Source: Azoarcus sp. (GTDB taxonomy: Bacteria > Pseudomonadota > Gammaproteobacteria > Burkholderiales > Rhodocyclaceae). From it: DNA of 38,967 nt. The notes beneath the pieces are model-generated. The model worked only from the letters and a program-made list of their open reading frames with translations, was not told the DNA's origin and did not search any database. The first letter of the stretch is position 1; the number at the start of each line of letters is the position of its first letter. This document shows positions 5,491 through 12,900 of this stretch, one piece after another. The stretch spans positions 1-38,967 of the forward strand of contig JAIRMC010000049.1 of NCBI GenBank assembly GCA_031258965.1, written 5' to 3'. Position numbers and translations under genes: made by a program.

Positions 5491-5530
5491 GCGTCATTGC
5501 GAGACCCGAAGCCCCGTGGTAATCCAAAGC
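5491..5530. repeat. Dispersed palindromic repeat copy (CGTCATTGCGAG family)
   Basis: This copy reads GCGTCATTGCGAG, then CCCCGTGGTAATCC. The same core recurs at 29835, 30079 (inverted), 30766 (inverted) and 33731, always between or at the edge of genes. It lies in the cysI–nrdA divergent spacer, between the cysI promoter region and the NrdR-like boxes. Confidence 0.7.
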
Positions 5531-5558
5531 GCCGTTCGCACGGCCCATCTTTTCTGAC

Positions 5559-5574
5559 ACACCGTATATTGTGG
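5559..5574 (+). promoter_or_regulatory. NrdR box 1 (putative)
   Basis: ACACCGTATATTGTGG closely resembles the NrdR consensus ACACWATATNTWGTGT. A second, similar box begins exactly 31 bp downstream, the three-turn spacing usual for NrdR box pairs. Both lie just upstream of the nrdAB promoter. Confidence 0.75.
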
Positions 5575-5589
5575 TCCCGTGCGTTCCAT

Positions 5590-5605
5590 ATACCGCATAT
5601 TGTAT
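5590..5605 (+). promoter_or_regulatory. NrdR box 2 (putative)
   Basis: ATACCGCATATTGTAT shares most positions with box 1 (A-ACCG-ATATTGT) and sits 31 bp from it, immediately before the TTGACA hexamer. NrdR is an ATP/dATP-sensing repressor of ribonucleotide reductase genes; cooperative binding to the pair would block the promoter. Confidence 0.72.
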
Positions 5606-5612
5606 CCAGCCC

Positions 5613-5642
5613 TTGACAGCCGCCGCCGCGCGGCCCTAGACT
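5613..5642 (+). promoter_or_regulatory. Sigma70-type promoter of nrdAB
   Basis: A perfect -35 TTGACA (5613-5618) is followed after 18 bp by TAGACT (5637-5642). The predicted transcript start near 5649 falls right at the 5' edge of the cobalamin riboswitch, which supports the assignment. Confidence 0.65.
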
Positions 5643-5649
5643 CGCGCCT

Positions 5650-5805
5650 CGTGACGGTCAAGGGAATCCGGTTCAGCGTCTGTCTGCTGTTTCATTCCGG
5701 AGCTGCCCCCGCAACTGTAACCGGCGAGCTTCGCGCCTCATCGCGCCACTGGATTTTCCGGGAAGGCAGGCGCGGGCGATAACCCGGAAGCCAGGAAACC
5801 TGCCG
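5650..5805 (+). ncRNA. Cobalamin (B12) riboswitch in the nrdAB leader
   Basis: Conserved elements appear in order: GTCAAGGGAATCCGGT near 5657-5672, the B12-box core GAGCTGCCCCCGCAACTGTAA (5700-5720), CCACTGG–GGGAAGG near 5746-5767, and the 3' element GGAAGCCAGGAAACCTGCC (5786-5804). This is the classic cobalamin aptamer layout. It precedes nrdA by about 140 nt. Binding of adenosylcobalamin normally lowers expression by hiding the ribosome site or by forming a terminator; no strong T-run terminator is seen after it, so control of translation is more likely (inference). Confidence 0.93.
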
Positions 5806-5947
5806 TTGTTTTCTTTTTGTCCGATGGAGCGGGGCGCTTCCGGGGACGATGATGGCTTCGTCATATCCCGTGCCTTGCGGGATTCCCAGCCCCGCGTCCT
5901 TCGATCTTCTCCGCGCCATCTCCATCATTGCCGGGGAGCGTTGGGAG

Positions 5948-8773
5948 ATGCAGCAGAATTCATTGGTTTCGGGCGGCCAGCCTGTGCAGGAGGCCATTGG
6001 CGTCCATGAGTCCGGCGCGACCGGCCACGGGACGGTTTCGGCGGCACAGGCCGGGCTGGAGGTTATCCGCCGCAATGGCCGCATCGCGCCATTCCAGCCG
6101 GAGAAGATCGCGCTGGCCTTGTCCAAGGCGTTCTTGGCTGTGGCGGGCGGGCAGGGCGCGATTTCCGCCCGCATCCGCGAGGCGGTGACGCGGCTGACCC
6201 GGAATGTGGTGGACGCGCTGACGCGCCGTCATCCAGCCGGGGGCGTGGTGCATATCGAGACGATCCAGGATCAGGTGGAACTGGCCCTGATGCGTGCCGG
6301 AGAGCACGATGTGGCCCGCGCTTACGTGCTTTACCGGGAACGCCGGGCAGAGGAGCGCGCCGCCGCCGCAAGGGCTGCCGCCGGTTCCGGGAAGGAGGGC
6401 GCGGCGGCCGCTGTGTTGCACGTCGTGGTGGACGGGGAGCGCCGCCCGCTGGATGTGCAGGCTTTACAGGCGCGTGCGCAGGCCGCTTGCGCCGGTCTGG
6501 AGCCAGAGGCATCGGCGCAGACGGTGCTCGACCTGACCCTGAAAAGCCTTTATGACGGCATGCCCTTGTCCGAAGCGCACGCGGCCATGACGCTCGCCGC
6601 GCGCACCTTGATCGAACAAGACCCGGCCTATGACAAGGCGACGGCCCGGCTGCAATTGTTCGCGCTTTTCCGGGAAGTGCTTGGCCGGGAGATTCCACCC
6701 GGATCGGCGGCGGAGCAGACGCGGGAGTATTTTCCCCGCTTCGTCGCCCTGGGTATCGAGGCCGGATTGCTGGACGAGCGCCTCGCCGAATTCAATCTGC
6801 CCCGCCTCGCGGCGGCGCTGCGGCCAGAGCGGGATTTGCAGTTTGGTTATCTGGGCCTGCAAACGCTTTACGACCGCTATTTTCTGCACATCGACGAGCG
6901 CCGCATCGAACTGCCGCAGGTGTTTTTCATGCGCATCGCCATGGGGCTGGCGCTGAACGAGATCGACCGCGAGGCCCGCGCCATCGCGTTCTACGACCTG
7001 ATTTCCAACTTCGATTTCATGTGTTCGACGCCGACGCTGTTCAACGCGGGCACGCGGCATCCGCAGCTTTCTTCCTGCTATCTGACGACGGTGACGGACG
7101 ATCTGGACGGGATTTTCCAGTCGATCAAGGAAAACGCGCTGTTGCAAAAGTTTGCGGGCGGCCTGGGCAACGACTGGACGCCAGTTCGCGCGCTGGGCAG
7201 CCGCATCCGGGGCACGAACGGCAAGAGCCAGGGAGTGATCCCTTTCCTGAAGGTGGTCAACGACACAGCGGTGGCGGTCAACCAGGGCGGCAAGCGCAAG
7301 GGCGCGGTGTGCGCGTATCTGGAGACCTGGCATCTGGACATCGAGGAATTCCTGGAACTGCGCAAGAATACCGGCGACGAGCGCCGCCGCTGCCACGATA
7401 TGAATACGGCGCACTGGATTCCCGATCTCTTCATGGAACGAGTGCTGGAAAACGGCGAGTGGACGCTGTTTTCGCCCGACGAGGCGCCGGAACTACACGA
7501 GAAGTACGGGCGCGCCTTCGCCGAAGCCTACGTCGCCTGCGAGGAAAGAGCGGCGCGCGGCGAGATACGCCTGTTCCGCAAGCTGCCCGCCGTGCAGTTG
7601 TGGCGGCGCATGCTCACTATGCTGTTCGAGACGGGGCATCCGTGGATCGCGTTCAAGGACCCCTGCAATCTGCGCTCGCCGCAGCGGCACGCGGGTGTGG
7701 TGCATAGTTCCAATTTGTGTACCGAGATCACGCTCAATACCTCGGCGGGGGAAACCGCCGTGTGCAACCTCGGCTCGGTCAATCTGCCCGCGCATCTGAA
7801 GGACGGCGCGCTTGATCTGGAAAAGCTCAGGCACACAGTCGGCACGGCCATGCGGATGCTGGACAATGTGATCGACCTCAACTATTACGCCATCCCCAAG
7901 GCGCGTAACGCCAATTTGCGCCACCGTCCCGTGGGGCTGGGCATCATGGGTTTCGCGGACTGCCTGCACGTCATGGGCATGCCTTACGCATCGGAAGAAG
8001 CGGCGGAATTCGCCGACCGCTCCATGGAAGCCGTATGTTATCTGGCCTACTGGGCTTCTACGGATCTCGCCGAAGAGCGTGGGCGCTATTCCAGCTTCGC
8101 GGGCAGCCTGTGGGATCAGGGCATCCTGCCGCCGGATTCCATCGCCCTGCTGGAAGCGGAGCGCAGCCGCCCCGTCGCGCAGGACAGAAGCGCCACGCTC
8201 GATTGGGAGGCGTTGCGCGCGCGCATCCGCGCGGTGGGCATGCGCAATGCCAACTGCGTCGCCATCGCGCCGACTGCCACCATTTCCAACATTGTCGGCG
8301 TCTCGCAGGGCATCGAGCCGGACTACCAGAATCTGTACGTCAAGTCCAATCTCTCCGGCGAATTCACCATCGTGAATGCCCACCTCGTGCGCGAACTCAA
8401 GGCCTTGGACTTGTGGGACACGGTGATGGCGGGCGACCTCAAATATTTCGACGGTTCGCTTGCCCGCATCGACCGCGTGCCGGAAGACATCCGCGCCCGC
8501 TACGCCACCGCCTTCGAGATCGACGCCAAATGGCTGGTGGAAGCCGCATCCCGCCGCCAGAAGTGGATCGACCAGTCCCAGTCCCTCAACCTCTATCTGG
8601 CCGCGCCTTCGGGCAGGAAGCTCGACGAACTCTACAAACTGGCCTGGGACAAGGGACTCAAGACCACTTACTACTTGCGCACGCTGGGCGCGTCCCAGGC
8701 GGAAAAGCTTGCCGCCGACGATACCCCGCGCTTCTGCGCCATCGACAATCCCGACTGCGAGGCCTGCCAATGA
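5948..8773 (+). CDS. nrdA: Class Ia ribonucleoside-diphosphate reductase, alpha subunit
   Basis: The large catalytic subunit, which reduces NDPs to dNDPs. The frame is open from 5849, but the ATG at 5948 (MQQNSLVSGG) has a GGGGAG about nine bases upstream and gives 941 residues. One ATP-cone lies at about 39-130 (VIRRNGRIAPFQPEKIA), the site of overall activity control. Redox cysteines are C377 (LSSCYL) and C606 (TAVCNLGSVNL); N589, C591 and E593 in NLCTEI form the active site. The C-terminal tail ends FCAIDNPDCEACQ, with the shuttle cysteines. Its stop overlaps the nrdB start by 4 bp (ATGA). Upstream lie paired NrdR-like boxes and a B12 riboswitch. Confidence 0.96.
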   Translation: MQQNSLVSGGQPVQEAIGVHESGATGHGTVSAAQAGLEVIRRNGRIAPFQPEKIALALSKAFLAVAGGQGAISARIREAVTRLTRNVVDALTRRHPAGGVVHIETIQDQVELALMRAGEHDVARAYVLYRERRAEERAAAARAAAGSGKEGAAAAVLHVVVDGERRPLDVQALQARAQAACAGLEPEASAQTVLDLTLKSLYDGMPLSEAHAAMTLAARTLIEQDPAYDKATARLQLFALFREVLGREIPPGSAAEQTREYFPRFVALGIEAGLLDERLAEFNLPRLAAALRPERDLQFGYLGLQTLYDRYFLHIDERRIELPQVFFMRIAMGLALNEIDREARAIAFYDLISNFDFMCSTPTLFNAGTRHPQLSSCYLTTVTDDLDGIFQSIKENALLQKFAGGLGNDWTPVRALGSRIRGTNGKSQGVIPFLKVVNDTAVAVNQGGKRKGAVCAYLETWHLDIEEFLELRKNTGDERRRCHDMNTAHWIPDLFMERVLENGEWTLFSPDEAPELHEKYGRAFAEAYVACEERAARGEIRLFRKLPAVQLWRRMLTMLFETGHPWIAFKDPCNLRSPQRHAGVVHSSNLCTEITLNTSAGETAVCNLGSVNLPAHLKDGALDLEKLRHTVGTAMRMLDNVIDLNYYAIPKARNANLRHRPVGLGIMGFADCLHVMGMPYASEEAAEFADRSMEAVCYLAYWASTDLAEERGRYSSFAGSLWDQGILPPDSIALLEAERSRPVAQDRSATLDWEALRARIRAVGMRNANCVAIAPTATISNIVGVSQGIEPDYQNLYVKSNLSGEFTIVNAHLVRELKALDLWDTVMAGDLKYFDGSLARIDRVPEDIRARYATAFEIDAKWLVEAASRRQKWIDQSQSLNLYLAAPSGRKLDELYKLAWDKGLKTTYYLRTLGASQAEKLAADDTPRFCAIDNPDCEACQ

Positions 8774-9897
8774 ACGCCACAGCGAACACGCTTTTCGACG
8801 ACTGGGACGACGCGCCCGTTGCCACGCCTGCACGTTCCGAAAGTCCCGCCGCTCCCGAAAACGCGACGGACGCGGAAAACACGGCGGCCAGCCTTGCCCC
8901 GGTCAAGGCCGCCGACAAGCGCATCGTCAATGGCCGGGGCGACATCAACCAGCTCGCGCCTTTCAAATACCCCTGGGCCTGGGACTTCTTCCTTACCGCC
9001 AACCGCAACCACTGGACGCCCACGGAAATCAACATGGCGCAGGACGTGCAGGACTACCGCCACAAGCTCACCCCGGCAGAGCGGCACATGTTCGAGAACG
9101 TGCTGGCCTACCTCACCACTTCCGACATCCTTGCCATGCGCAACATCGGCCTGGCCGTCATGGAAAAGATGACCGCGCCGGAACTCCAGATCTACCAGGC
9201 GCGCCAAGTCTACGAAGAATCCCTGCACACCTGGACGTACCAGCATTGCATCGAGACCCTGAATCTCGACCAGGAGGACATCTACAACCGCTACCGGATC
9301 GTGCCCGCCATCCATGGCAAGATCGCGCTCGCCAACCGCCGTCTGGAAAAAGTGCTGTGCTCGGGGCTTGATCTCACTAACCGGGAGACCTTGCACGAAT
9401 TCGCCCTTTCCTACCTTTTCTTCGCGGGCATCTTCGAGGGCTGCTGGTTCTACAACGGTTTTTCCCCCATCTTCGCCCTGCAACGGCGGGGCCTGATGAA
9501 AGGCACGGCAGAGCAGTTCCAGTACATCATGCGCGACGAAGTGTTGCATTGCGCCTTCGGCATTCGCGTCATCCGCGAACTCATGCACGAGGAAAACCTG
9601 ACGCTCGACCCGGAAGCCGTGGCCGACCTGTGGCGCGAAGCGGAGGCGGCGGAAAACGCCTATGCCCATTACGTGCTGCGCGACCCCGTCCTCGGCTATT
9701 CCGCCGATCTGCACATGGAGCAGTTCCGCTTTGTTGCCAACCGCCGTGCCCGTCAGCTCGGTCTCGCGGAACCTTTTCCCGGCGCGGAAGCCGCGCTGCC
9801 CTGGCTGGACGAACAGGCCAATTTGCGGAAAGAAAAGAATTTCTTCGAGACGCGGATCACCGAGTATCAAACGGGGGGAAGCCTGGCGTGGGAGTAA
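8770..9897 (+). CDS. nrdB: Class Ia ribonucleotide reductase, beta subunit (diiron-tyrosyl radical)
   Basis: A 375-residue radical-generating subunit that pairs with NrdA. All diiron ligands can be placed by spacing against E. coli NrdB: D119, E150 and H153 (EESLHTWTY), E223 (FEGCWFY), E257 and H260 (RDEVLH). The radical tyrosine is Y157, seven residues after E150, as in class Ia enzymes. The first 55 or so residues are an acidic, Ala-rich and probably disordered extension before the conserved INQLAPFKYPWAW. It starts inside the nrdA stop (ATGA), so the two are translationally coupled. No nrdG, nrdI or ferredoxin gene follows. Confidence 0.96.
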   Translation: MNATANTLFDDWDDAPVATPARSESPAAPENATDAENTAASLAPVKAADKRIVNGRGDINQLAPFKYPWAWDFFLTANRNHWTPTEINMAQDVQDYRHKLTPAERHMFENVLAYLTTSDILAMRNIGLAVMEKMTAPELQIYQARQVYEESLHTWTYQHCIETLNLDQEDIYNRYRIVPAIHGKIALANRRLEKVLCSGLDLTNRETLHEFALSYLFFAGIFEGCWFYNGFSPIFALQRRGLMKGTAEQFQYIMRDEVLHCAFGIRVIRELMHEENLTLDPEAVADLWREAEAAENAYAHYVLRDPVLGYSADLHMEQFRFVANRRARQLGLAEPFPGAEAALPWLDEQANLRKEKNFFETRITEYQTGGSLAWE

Positions 9898-11611: not shown

Positions 11612-12109
11612 CTACCCGGCGTGTCGCCGGTATTCGACGAACTCGACCGCGTGATCGTTATCCGCGTCGGCGGGACGGCATTTGCGGGAGATTTCCCTGA
11701 AATGCGCGCGGTCGAAAGTGGGAAAGCAGGCGTCGCCTTCCACGTCGGCGGCGACTTCGGTCAGGAGCAGCGTGTCCGCCCAAGGCAGCAGGGCGTGATA
11801 GATTTCCCCGCCGCCAATGACGAACAGACGCGCGGCCCCGGCGGCGGCGTCCAACGCCTCACGGGTCGAGACGAAGACTTCCGCGCCCCGCGCCACGTAG
11901 CCCGGTTGCCGGGTAAGCACGAGGTTGCGGCGGCCTGGCAGCGGCTTGCCGAGGGATTCCCAGGTTTTGCGGCCCATGAGCACTGGATGCCCAAGGGTGG
12001 TTTCGCGGAAATGGCAGAGATCGGCCTTCAGCCGCCAGGGTAGGACATTGTCGCGCCCGATGACGCCGTTGCGGGCGACGGCGGCGATCAGGATGATTTC
12101 GGTTGTCAT
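11612..12109 (-). CDS. folA: Dihydrofolate reductase
   Basis: A 165-residue enzyme that regenerates tetrahydrofolate with NADPH. Visible family segments are [18 protein letters not shown], the active-site acid D30 (equivalent to E. coli D27), [20 protein letters not shown] and [17 protein letters not shown]. The ATG overlaps the thyA stop by 4 bp (12106-12109), so it is coupled to thymidylate synthase, whose reaction yields the dihydrofolate it uses. It converges with the DnaJ-like gene, with 6 bp between the stops. Confidence 0.96.
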
Positions 12110-12900
12110 ACGGCCACGGGCGCCTTGATGTGAGGATGGGGATCGTAGCCGCTAAGGGTAAAGTCCTCGAAACGAAAGGCGAAAATATCTTCGACAGCGG
12201 GATTGAGCGTCATGGCGGGAAGCGGGCGCGGCTCGCGCGCGAGTTGTTCGCGCGCCTGTTCGACGTGGTTGAGATACAGGTGGCAGTCGCCCCCCGTCCA
12301 GATAAAATCGCCCGGACGGTAGCCGCACACTTGCGCGGCCATGAGGGTGAGCAGGGCGTAGGAGGCGATGTTGAAGGGCACGCCAAGAAAAATGTCGGCG
12401 CTGCGCTGGTAGAGTTGGCACGATAATTCGTCATTGCAGACATGAAACTGAAACAGCACGTGACACGGGGGCAAGGCCATACGGTCGATTTCGCCAGGAT
12501 TCCACGCCGTGACAAGGTGGCGGCGGGAATCCGGGTTGTTCTTCAGTCCGGCGATGAGCGTGGCGATCTGGTCGATGCGGCGGCCATCGGCGCTTTCCCA
12601 GCAGCGCCACTGTTTACCGTAGACCGGCCCCAGGTCGCCGTTCTCGTCCGCCCATTCGTCCCAGATCGACACGCCATTATCCTTGAGGTAGCGAATGTTG
12701 GCGCCGCCTTGCAAGAACCACAGCAATTCATGGATGATCGAGCGTGTGTGCAGTTTTTTCGTGGTGAGCAATGGAAACCCCTCCCGGAGCGGGAAGCGCA
12801 TCTGCCAGCCGAAGACCGACAAGGTACCGGTGCCGGTGCGGTCTGTTTTTTTGCCGCCGCATTCGAGGACGCGGCGCATCAGATCCAGATATTGTTTCAC
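12106..12900 (-). CDS. thyA: Thymidylate synthase
   Basis: A 264-residue enzyme converting dUMP to dTMP with methylene-tetrahydrofolate. The length equals that of E. coli ThyA. The nucleophile is C146 ([10 protein letters not shown]). Other family blocks are [42 protein letters not shown] and [12 protein letters not shown]. It is transcribed ahead of folA and divergently from the 464-residue gene, with a 70-bp spacer. Confidence 0.97.

Follow-up and report, generated by a model that had tools for sequence, protein, structure and literature searches.

A probable adenosylcobalamin riboswitch upstream of nrdAB in Azoarcus sp. and its damage in relatives without a NrdJ match

The nrdAB transcript of this Azoarcus sp. 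appears to start with a riboswitch for adenosylcobalamin. We consider it likely, with a probability of about 0.85, that this element turns nrdAB off when vitamin B12 is imported, at which point the B12-dependent class II ribonucleotide reductase NrdJ would make the deoxynucleotides, and that it most likely does so at the level of translation. The class I enzyme would be produced when B12 is in short supply. At the DNA level, the promoter is probably also under NrdR, the general repressor that senses dNTPs. The elements recognised by sequence are the aptamer, genes for both enzymes, an uptake gene with a riboswitch of its own, an nrdR gene with candidate boxes, and damage to the switch in relatives that lack a NrdJ match. 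Throughout, the window is the whole stretch of DNA analysed, 38,967 nucleotides in length.

A cobalamin aptamer directly upstream of nrdA

When the whole window was searched with Rfam covariance models at gathering thresholds, the sole match was the cobalamin riboswitch RF00174, located directly 5′ of nrdA. The match spans the full model (1-189 of 189) with 98.0 bits (gathering 31.5) and an E value of 1.9e-23, and therefore is not due to chance. The first-pass annotation had read a B12 aptamer in the nrdAB leader and had proposed this covariance-model search, and its reading is confirmed by the strong score. The features of the leader and the operon are as follows.

5638..5821, forward strand: cobalamin riboswitch aptamer (RF00174)
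5702..5717, forward strand: conserved GCUGCCCCCGCAACUG (L5)
5745..5767, forward strand: B12 box GCCACTG...GGGAAGGC
5806..5819, forward strand: U-rich stretch UUGUUUUCUUUUUG, directly 3′ of the closing helix of the aptamer
5826..5841, forward strand: switch hairpin GGAGC-GGGGC-GCUUCC, present in the leader alignment, with a loop complementary to L5
5889..5895, forward strand: GCCCCGC, a 7-bp exact complement that is a candidate for pairing with the L13 loop when no ligand is bound
5933..5938, forward strand: Shine-Dalgarno (SD) sequence GGGGAG of nrdA, kept in close relatives
5948..8773, forward strand: nrdA, class I ribonucleotide reductase alpha subunit (NF005544 1601 bits, cut-off 965; TIGR02506 708 bits)
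8770..9897, forward strand: nrdB, beta subunit (NF005550 351 bits, cut-off 309; PF00268 222 bits)

The conserved element at 5702 is what we take to be L5, the partner of the regulatory kissing loop. Its motif GCCCCCGCAAC is matched in 28/28 intact nrdA-leader aptamers and in 0/3 aptamers of genus members without a NrdJ match. The hairpin at 5826 (GGAGCGGGGCGCTTCC) presumably corresponds to an L13-like switch hairpin; judged by sequence only, its loop GGGGC pairs with GCCCC of L5, and the switch-hairpin motif GCGGGG is present in 27 of the 28 intact nrdA leaders. The segment GGGGACGATGATGG at 5842-5855, 3′ of this hairpin, recurs in much the same form in most of the nine close leaders that were aligned. 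U-rich tails 3′ of the aptamer are likewise found in the other genus leaders that were printed alongside the window.

The nrdB gene overlaps nrdA by 4 bp. NrdA carries an ATP-cone at residues 38-134 (PF03477, 75 bits), and NrdB contains the motifs TSD, ESLHTWTY, FEGCWFY and RDEVLH, which we take to hold the metal ligands and the radical tyrosine expected in a class I beta subunit. The earlier description of a class Ia operon with its ligands present agrees with the ATP-cone and these expected motifs. Both the SD and the ATG at 5948 are conserved in close relatives. A start at 5849, which would give a 974 aa frame that is open in the window, was rejected: of the six relatives in which the spacing of this ATG from the conserved nrdA start could be measured, five do not preserve that spacing modulo 3. 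Two to three kb from nrdAB, at window positions 11612-12900 on the reverse strand, there are frames that by eye resemble dihydrofolate reductase and thymidylate synthase, so that several dNTP-supply genes would lie close together near nrdAB.

Promoter and candidate NrdR boxes

Upstream of the aptamer are a promoter-like site and two candidate boxes for NrdR.

5559..5574, forward strand: candidate NrdR box 1, 16 bp, with direct repeat ACCGTATATTGT / ACCGCATATTGT
5590..5605, forward strand: candidate NrdR box 2, 16 bp, with the same direct-repeat pair
5613..5642, forward strand: sigma-70-like promoter, TTGACA - 18 nt - TAGACT, 10/12 consensus bases

The −35-like hexamer TTGACA (5613-5618) and the −10-like hexamer TAGACT (5637-5642) form the sole promoter-like site in the region 5500-6000, where 0.2 would be expected. 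Of 28 nrdA leaders, 17 have a similar pattern 5′ of the aptamer, among them all seven from the genus. Given the position of this promoter, transcription should start at about 5649, at the base of the aptamer. The leader as delimited in the first-pass annotation (5650-5947) fits such a transcript, since it runs from approximately this start to the last base before the ATG.

The candidate NrdR boxes consist of two 12-bp direct repeats, 31 bp from start to start, inside two 16-bp boxes that are 15 bp apart. The same two-box arrangement is described for E. coli nrdHIEF and nrdDG in the available part of PMC12176259. The pair in the window scores 19/28 (10 + 9) compared to a best score of 18 in 100 shuffles, a difference that is weak when taken alone, and a 33-bp register scores equal to the 31-bp register. 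Across 28 riboswitch-bearing nrdA leaders, the pair score exceeds the shuffle maximum in 19, equals it in three, and falls below it in six (L150, L151, L085, L143, L115 and L142). The genome also encodes NrdR (TIGR00244 172 bits, cut-off 125). The nrdJ leader of the same genome (L006, 4373-4632) contains ACACTATATCTAGTAT, which resembles an NrdR box, as well as a second palindrome upstream, and yields no cobalamin riboswitch match, the genome holding only two. Thus both reductases may be under NrdR.

A class II reductase and a probable B12 uptake gene in the same genome

The assembly that contains the window comprises 2.71 Mb in 145 contigs and is 93.7% complete. A class II NrdJ encoded elsewhere in it, beside a trpS-like gene, scores 604 bits to TIGR02504 (cut-off 400), a model to which NrdA itself gives 390 bits. 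This NrdJ is 96% and 93% identical to those of the two closest genus relatives and 86-90% identical to those of the other genus members compared, and its contig has a similar GC content (0.621 against 0.634); it is therefore not an obvious contaminant. Judged by its predicted genes, the genome holds two reductases, the class I NrdAB and the class II NrdJ, and no NrdD was found in it.

The second cobalamin riboswitch (109 bits) is located 5′ of a btuB-like gene for a TonB receptor, whose best match is the B12 receptor model at 420 bits, below the model cut-off of 600. Two markers of B12 biosynthesis, CbiC and CobS, gave no match in the 93.7% complete genome, and B12 is therefore probably imported. 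The first-pass annotation had predicted nrdJ and a locus for B12 synthesis or uptake elsewhere in the genome, and the former is present, as is the latter in the form of uptake. Its reading of the leader as an isozyme switch gains support from the strong covariance-model match combined with the presence of NrdJ.

Translational or transcriptional control

The ligand, the direction of control and the translational mode are what we infer. In the translational mode, the loop of the switch hairpin would dock on L5 of the aptamer when ligand is bound, and the downstream sequence would then be free to cover the ribosome binding site of nrdA. The region from the switch hairpin to the SD was compared in 22 leaders and in 200 shuffled sets. 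For the L13 loop, the longest complement there has a mean length of 5.77 nt, where shuffles give 5.22 (sd 0.18) and the best shuffled set 5.59; for the SD, the corresponding mean is 6.05, where shuffles give 5.12 (sd 0.18) and the best set again 5.59. Because the leaders are related, these comparisons do not represent probabilities, and both means include the damaged leaders L147 and L149. For the window, the 7-bp complement to the L13 loop is reached by 12% of shuffles and is not significant alone, and the SD complement of 5 nt is reached by 87%.

Folding was examined in 22 of 29 leaders; six others are without the frame motif used and one is without GCGGGG. The shuffles were made by a home-made swap scheme in the fold test and by an Euler shuffle in the complement test. 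In both tests the rows for L149 are unreliable, as a later in-frame start was taken for it than the one conserved in relatives. The damaged L147 and L149 count towards the fold mean as well. When the L13 loop was masked, SD accessibility changed by a mean of 0.039 over the 22 leaders compared to 0.019 (sd 0.026) in shuffles, which is not significant, and the two-state fold was consequently dropped as proof of SD sequestration. The SD of the window does move as predicted on masking, from 0.55 to 0.32, an outcome reached by 7% of shuffles. In either state its start codon is largely paired. A consensus fold (7 of 9 aligned close leaders) contains the switch hairpin and a few short stems.

The riboswitch might instead act on transcription, through Rho-dependent or intrinsic termination in the leader, and we give this a sizeable chance, about one in three. 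Both published nrdAB cases, in Streptomyces and Cutibacterium, point to transcription in the available portions of the reports, the fold test over the 22 leaders gave no significant signal of SD switching, and the U-rich stretch directly follows the aptamer. The terminator scan called no terminator at that stretch, which may nevertheless be part of one. Against termination, the longest T run within 110 bases 3′ of the window aptamer is 2, the scan found nothing on the forward strand in 5690-6000, and complementarity to the SD over the leaders exceeds that of shuffles. On balance, translational control is favoured over transcriptional control by somewhat under two to one.

Distribution of the nrdA-leader riboswitch among relatives

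The first-pass annotation had regarded a betaproteobacterial case as less familiar. This view does not hold, as RF00174 is present in the nrdA leader at 24 of 80 loci in the relative set, which consists of the best 80 of 582 nrdA relatives. By batch the counts are 11/17, 13/16, 0/17, 0/17 and 0/13, and three of the 80 loci (L084, L094 and L134) have little or no upstream DNA. Among the 24 carriers are Rhodocyclus gracilis, Tepidiphilus margaritifer, an Accumulibacter MAG, Methylotenera, Methylomonas koyamae and Methylomicrobium, and the carriers in this set thus extend to Methylophilaceae and gammaproteobacterial methanotrophs. The nearest named nrdA relatives within the best 80 of 582 are MAGs named Azoarcus sp. 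and Zoogloeaceae bacterium, which we suppose from their isolate codes to come from termite guts.

Co-occurrence with NrdJ was counted in 75 genomes, after L084, L094, L134 and L070 had been left out and L115 and L130, which come from a single genome, had been counted once. NrdJ is present in 19 of 22 genomes with an nrdA riboswitch compared to 31 of 53 without one (Fisher one-sided p 0.017, with relatedness ignored). Matches of approximately 480 bits or more were counted as NrdJ, together with split pieces and pieces at contig ends; among the 31 positive genomes without a riboswitch, G091, G107, G112 and G132 rest on pieces lacking an over-cut-off flag. Matches of 400-411 bits at nrdA-type genes were not counted as NrdJ, and these lie over the model cut-off in several Nitrosomonas-like genomes. 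Three entries in the count, G060, G061 and G082, appear to be the genus members G018, G007 and G006, with which they share identical coordinates. Because NrdJ occurs in so many of the nrdA genomes that are free of the riboswitch (31/53), the pairing of riboswitch and NrdJ is not obligatory. The three genomes with an nrdA riboswitch and no NrdJ match are G061, which has the same contig as G007 with a damaged aptamer, and the more distant G073 and G081, whose aptamers look intact.

Several further arrangements were observed in these genomes. One Methylotenera genome (G074) has two nrdA loci, L115 and L130, each with its own cobalamin riboswitch. Second cobalamin riboswitches occur near nrdAB in Tepidiphilus margaritifer (L081, 940-1154) and in the Accumulibacter MAG (L085, 8493-8716). 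In the order-level relative G059, a 61-bit cobalamin riboswitch (L154, 4067-4477 on the reverse strand, G059:C11) precedes a divergent reductase that scores 166 bits to the NrdJ model, and this genome has NrdJ as well. In the same-genus bin G012, which is 7% contaminated, a 101-bit cobalamin riboswitch (10-173) is located directly before a class III nrdD (778-2388) on C203, which may be a contaminant contig. Finally, the NrdJ matches of G024, G047, G056, G071, G094 and G113 are interrupted at one profile position (281-282), each within one long open frame of 1118-1581 aa, as would be expected of inteins at a shared site.

Damaged nrdA riboswitches within the genus

A sample of 21 genomes of the genus includes five with both nrdA and NrdJ (G000, G001, G010, G017 and G018), nine with NrdJ only, a tenth with only an NrdJ fragment, two with neither, and four with nrdA and no NrdJ match (G002, G004, G006 and G007). 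The nrdA leader of G002 is cut off by a contig end, leaving three readable leaders in the last group. In each of the five genomes that encode both enzymes, the nrdA riboswitch is intact (85-118 bits) and retains its six core elements, which is the case in 0/3 genomes whose leader is readable and where nrdA occurs without a NrdJ match. The association between leader state and NrdJ has p 0.018 by genomes and 0.048 counting two events. Two damage events were counted because the affected genomes fall in separate branches of the NrdA tree, where G006 is placed with G000 and G018 (support 99/95), and G004 pairs with G007 (100/100).

The three leaders are damaged to different degrees. In G004, L5 is one base short and the sequence departs from GGGAAGGC, so that two of the six elements are off, and the aptamer still scores 91 bits. 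G007 (61 bits) has lost the GCGGGG loop along with part of the L5 region, and in G006 only a 3′ remnant is recognisable, with no Rfam match. The btuB riboswitches of the same three genomes score 111-114 bits and keep L5, GCCACT, GGGAAGGC and GCGGGG, and the genes behind them are 55-59% identical to the receptor of the window genome. Element counts at btuB loci used fixed windows that missed elements in L015, L031 and L032 and, at many loci, overlooked motifs one and five; these counts were therefore used only for L021, L023 and L027, where L5 and the B12 box were confirmed separately. No NrdD match was found in G002, G004, G006 or G007, which makes nrdAB the only reductase found in these four genomes; their completeness is 98% for G007, 87% for G006, 87% for G002 and 78% for G004.

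The simplest reading is that, without NrdJ, silencing the last reductase in response to B12 is harmful, and the switch was broken. We consider it slightly better than an even bet that the riboswitch was broken at least twice in the genus because NrdJ had been lost, with the damage selected since repression by B12 would stop DNA synthesis. The occurrence of such damage in relatives without a NrdJ match also lends support to the interpretation of the intact element as a switch to the B12-dependent enzyme.

There is a considerable, if lesser, chance that the damage has nothing to do with NrdJ and reflects coincidence, assembly gaps that hide nrdJ, or a relaxed general need for B12. Only two tree events are available, G004 and G006 are 78% and 87% complete, and the absence of nrdJ rests on missing matches in drafts and not on an empty site. 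Furthermore, the G004 aptamer retains its 91 bits with two of six elements off, and G073 and G081 combine apparently intact aptamers with no NrdJ match. Against this explanation, neither G007, at 98% completeness, nor its sister G004 yields a NrdJ match, and the intact btuB riboswitches in the same three genomes speak against a general loss of B12 sensing. That the aptamer in the window genome is an inherited relic without present use is very improbable: the damage in close relatives does indicate that the element is not always under selection, but its six core elements, including the switch-hairpin motif, are intact here and in four genus members with both enzymes while the intervening sequence varies.

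Relationship to known systems

A B12-repressed nrdAB operon beside nrdJ is already known from Streptomyces and Cutibacterium, as far as the available text of the reports extends. In Streptomyces coelicolor, the class Ia operon nrdABS is under a B12 riboswitch beside the class II NrdJ (available parts of PMC4991794 and PMC5962746), and its control is reported as transcriptional in the title of Borovok 2006 as cited in both. The window genome shares the class Ia operon, the B12 riboswitch and NrdJ. It differs in that S. coelicolor is an actinobacterium with a third operon gene, nrdS, and with reported transcriptional control. In Cutibacterium (Propionibacterium) acnes, nrdAB has an annotated cobalamin riboswitch and one promoter nrd-box, with nrdJ elsewhere, and RNA-seq suggests termination before the first gene (PMC3848588, in the sections available). 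The same three-part design of riboswitch, nrd-box and nrdJ is found here, with the box a candidate. In C. acnes, unlike in the window genome, where NrdD was not found, nrdDG is under a riboswitch too.

For nrdDG of delta-proteobacteria, a proposal of this kind is reportedly to be credited to earlier work by Rodionov et al. in 2003. B12 elements upstream of these genes were proposed to repress the B12-independent isozyme where a B12-dependent one exists (PMC545781, in the portion available, which credits earlier work); the isozyme logic is the same as for the window, and the enzyme there is of class III. In mycobacteria, loss of metH made B12 inhibitory, and riboswitch mutations were present in 17/22 colonies on B12 (available part of PMC10924821). 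This is a laboratory parallel to the damage in the genus, differing in that it concerns the methionine synthase pair metE/metH and laboratory-selected mutants. Cobalamin regulons have been mapped in 24 lineages, including Burkholderia and Ralstonia, with a category for 'isozymes of B12-dependent enzymes' (PMC3766115, as far as available). Cupriavidus metallidurans has nrdAB, nrdJ and nrdDG, and the riboswitch discussed for it, in the passages available, is at a cobalamin operon. Among the literature matches listed, we recognised no description of riboswitch decay after nrdJ loss or of a betaproteobacterial nrdAB riboswitch. What is added here is the parallel riboswitch damage in relatives without a NrdJ match, which we did not meet among those matches.

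Among the betaproteobacterial relatives the nrdAB riboswitch is widespread, and some methanotrophs carry it too, probably with NrdR acting at the promoter as well. In a set of near relatives, the switch appears to have been lost together with the enzyme that it served. If this is true, G004, G006 and G007 would be the natural counterpart of the metE/metH laboratory escape mutants, with the intact btuB riboswitch as an internal control. The old 'isozyme switch' hypothesis would thereby be open to evolutionary tests in addition to reporter assays.
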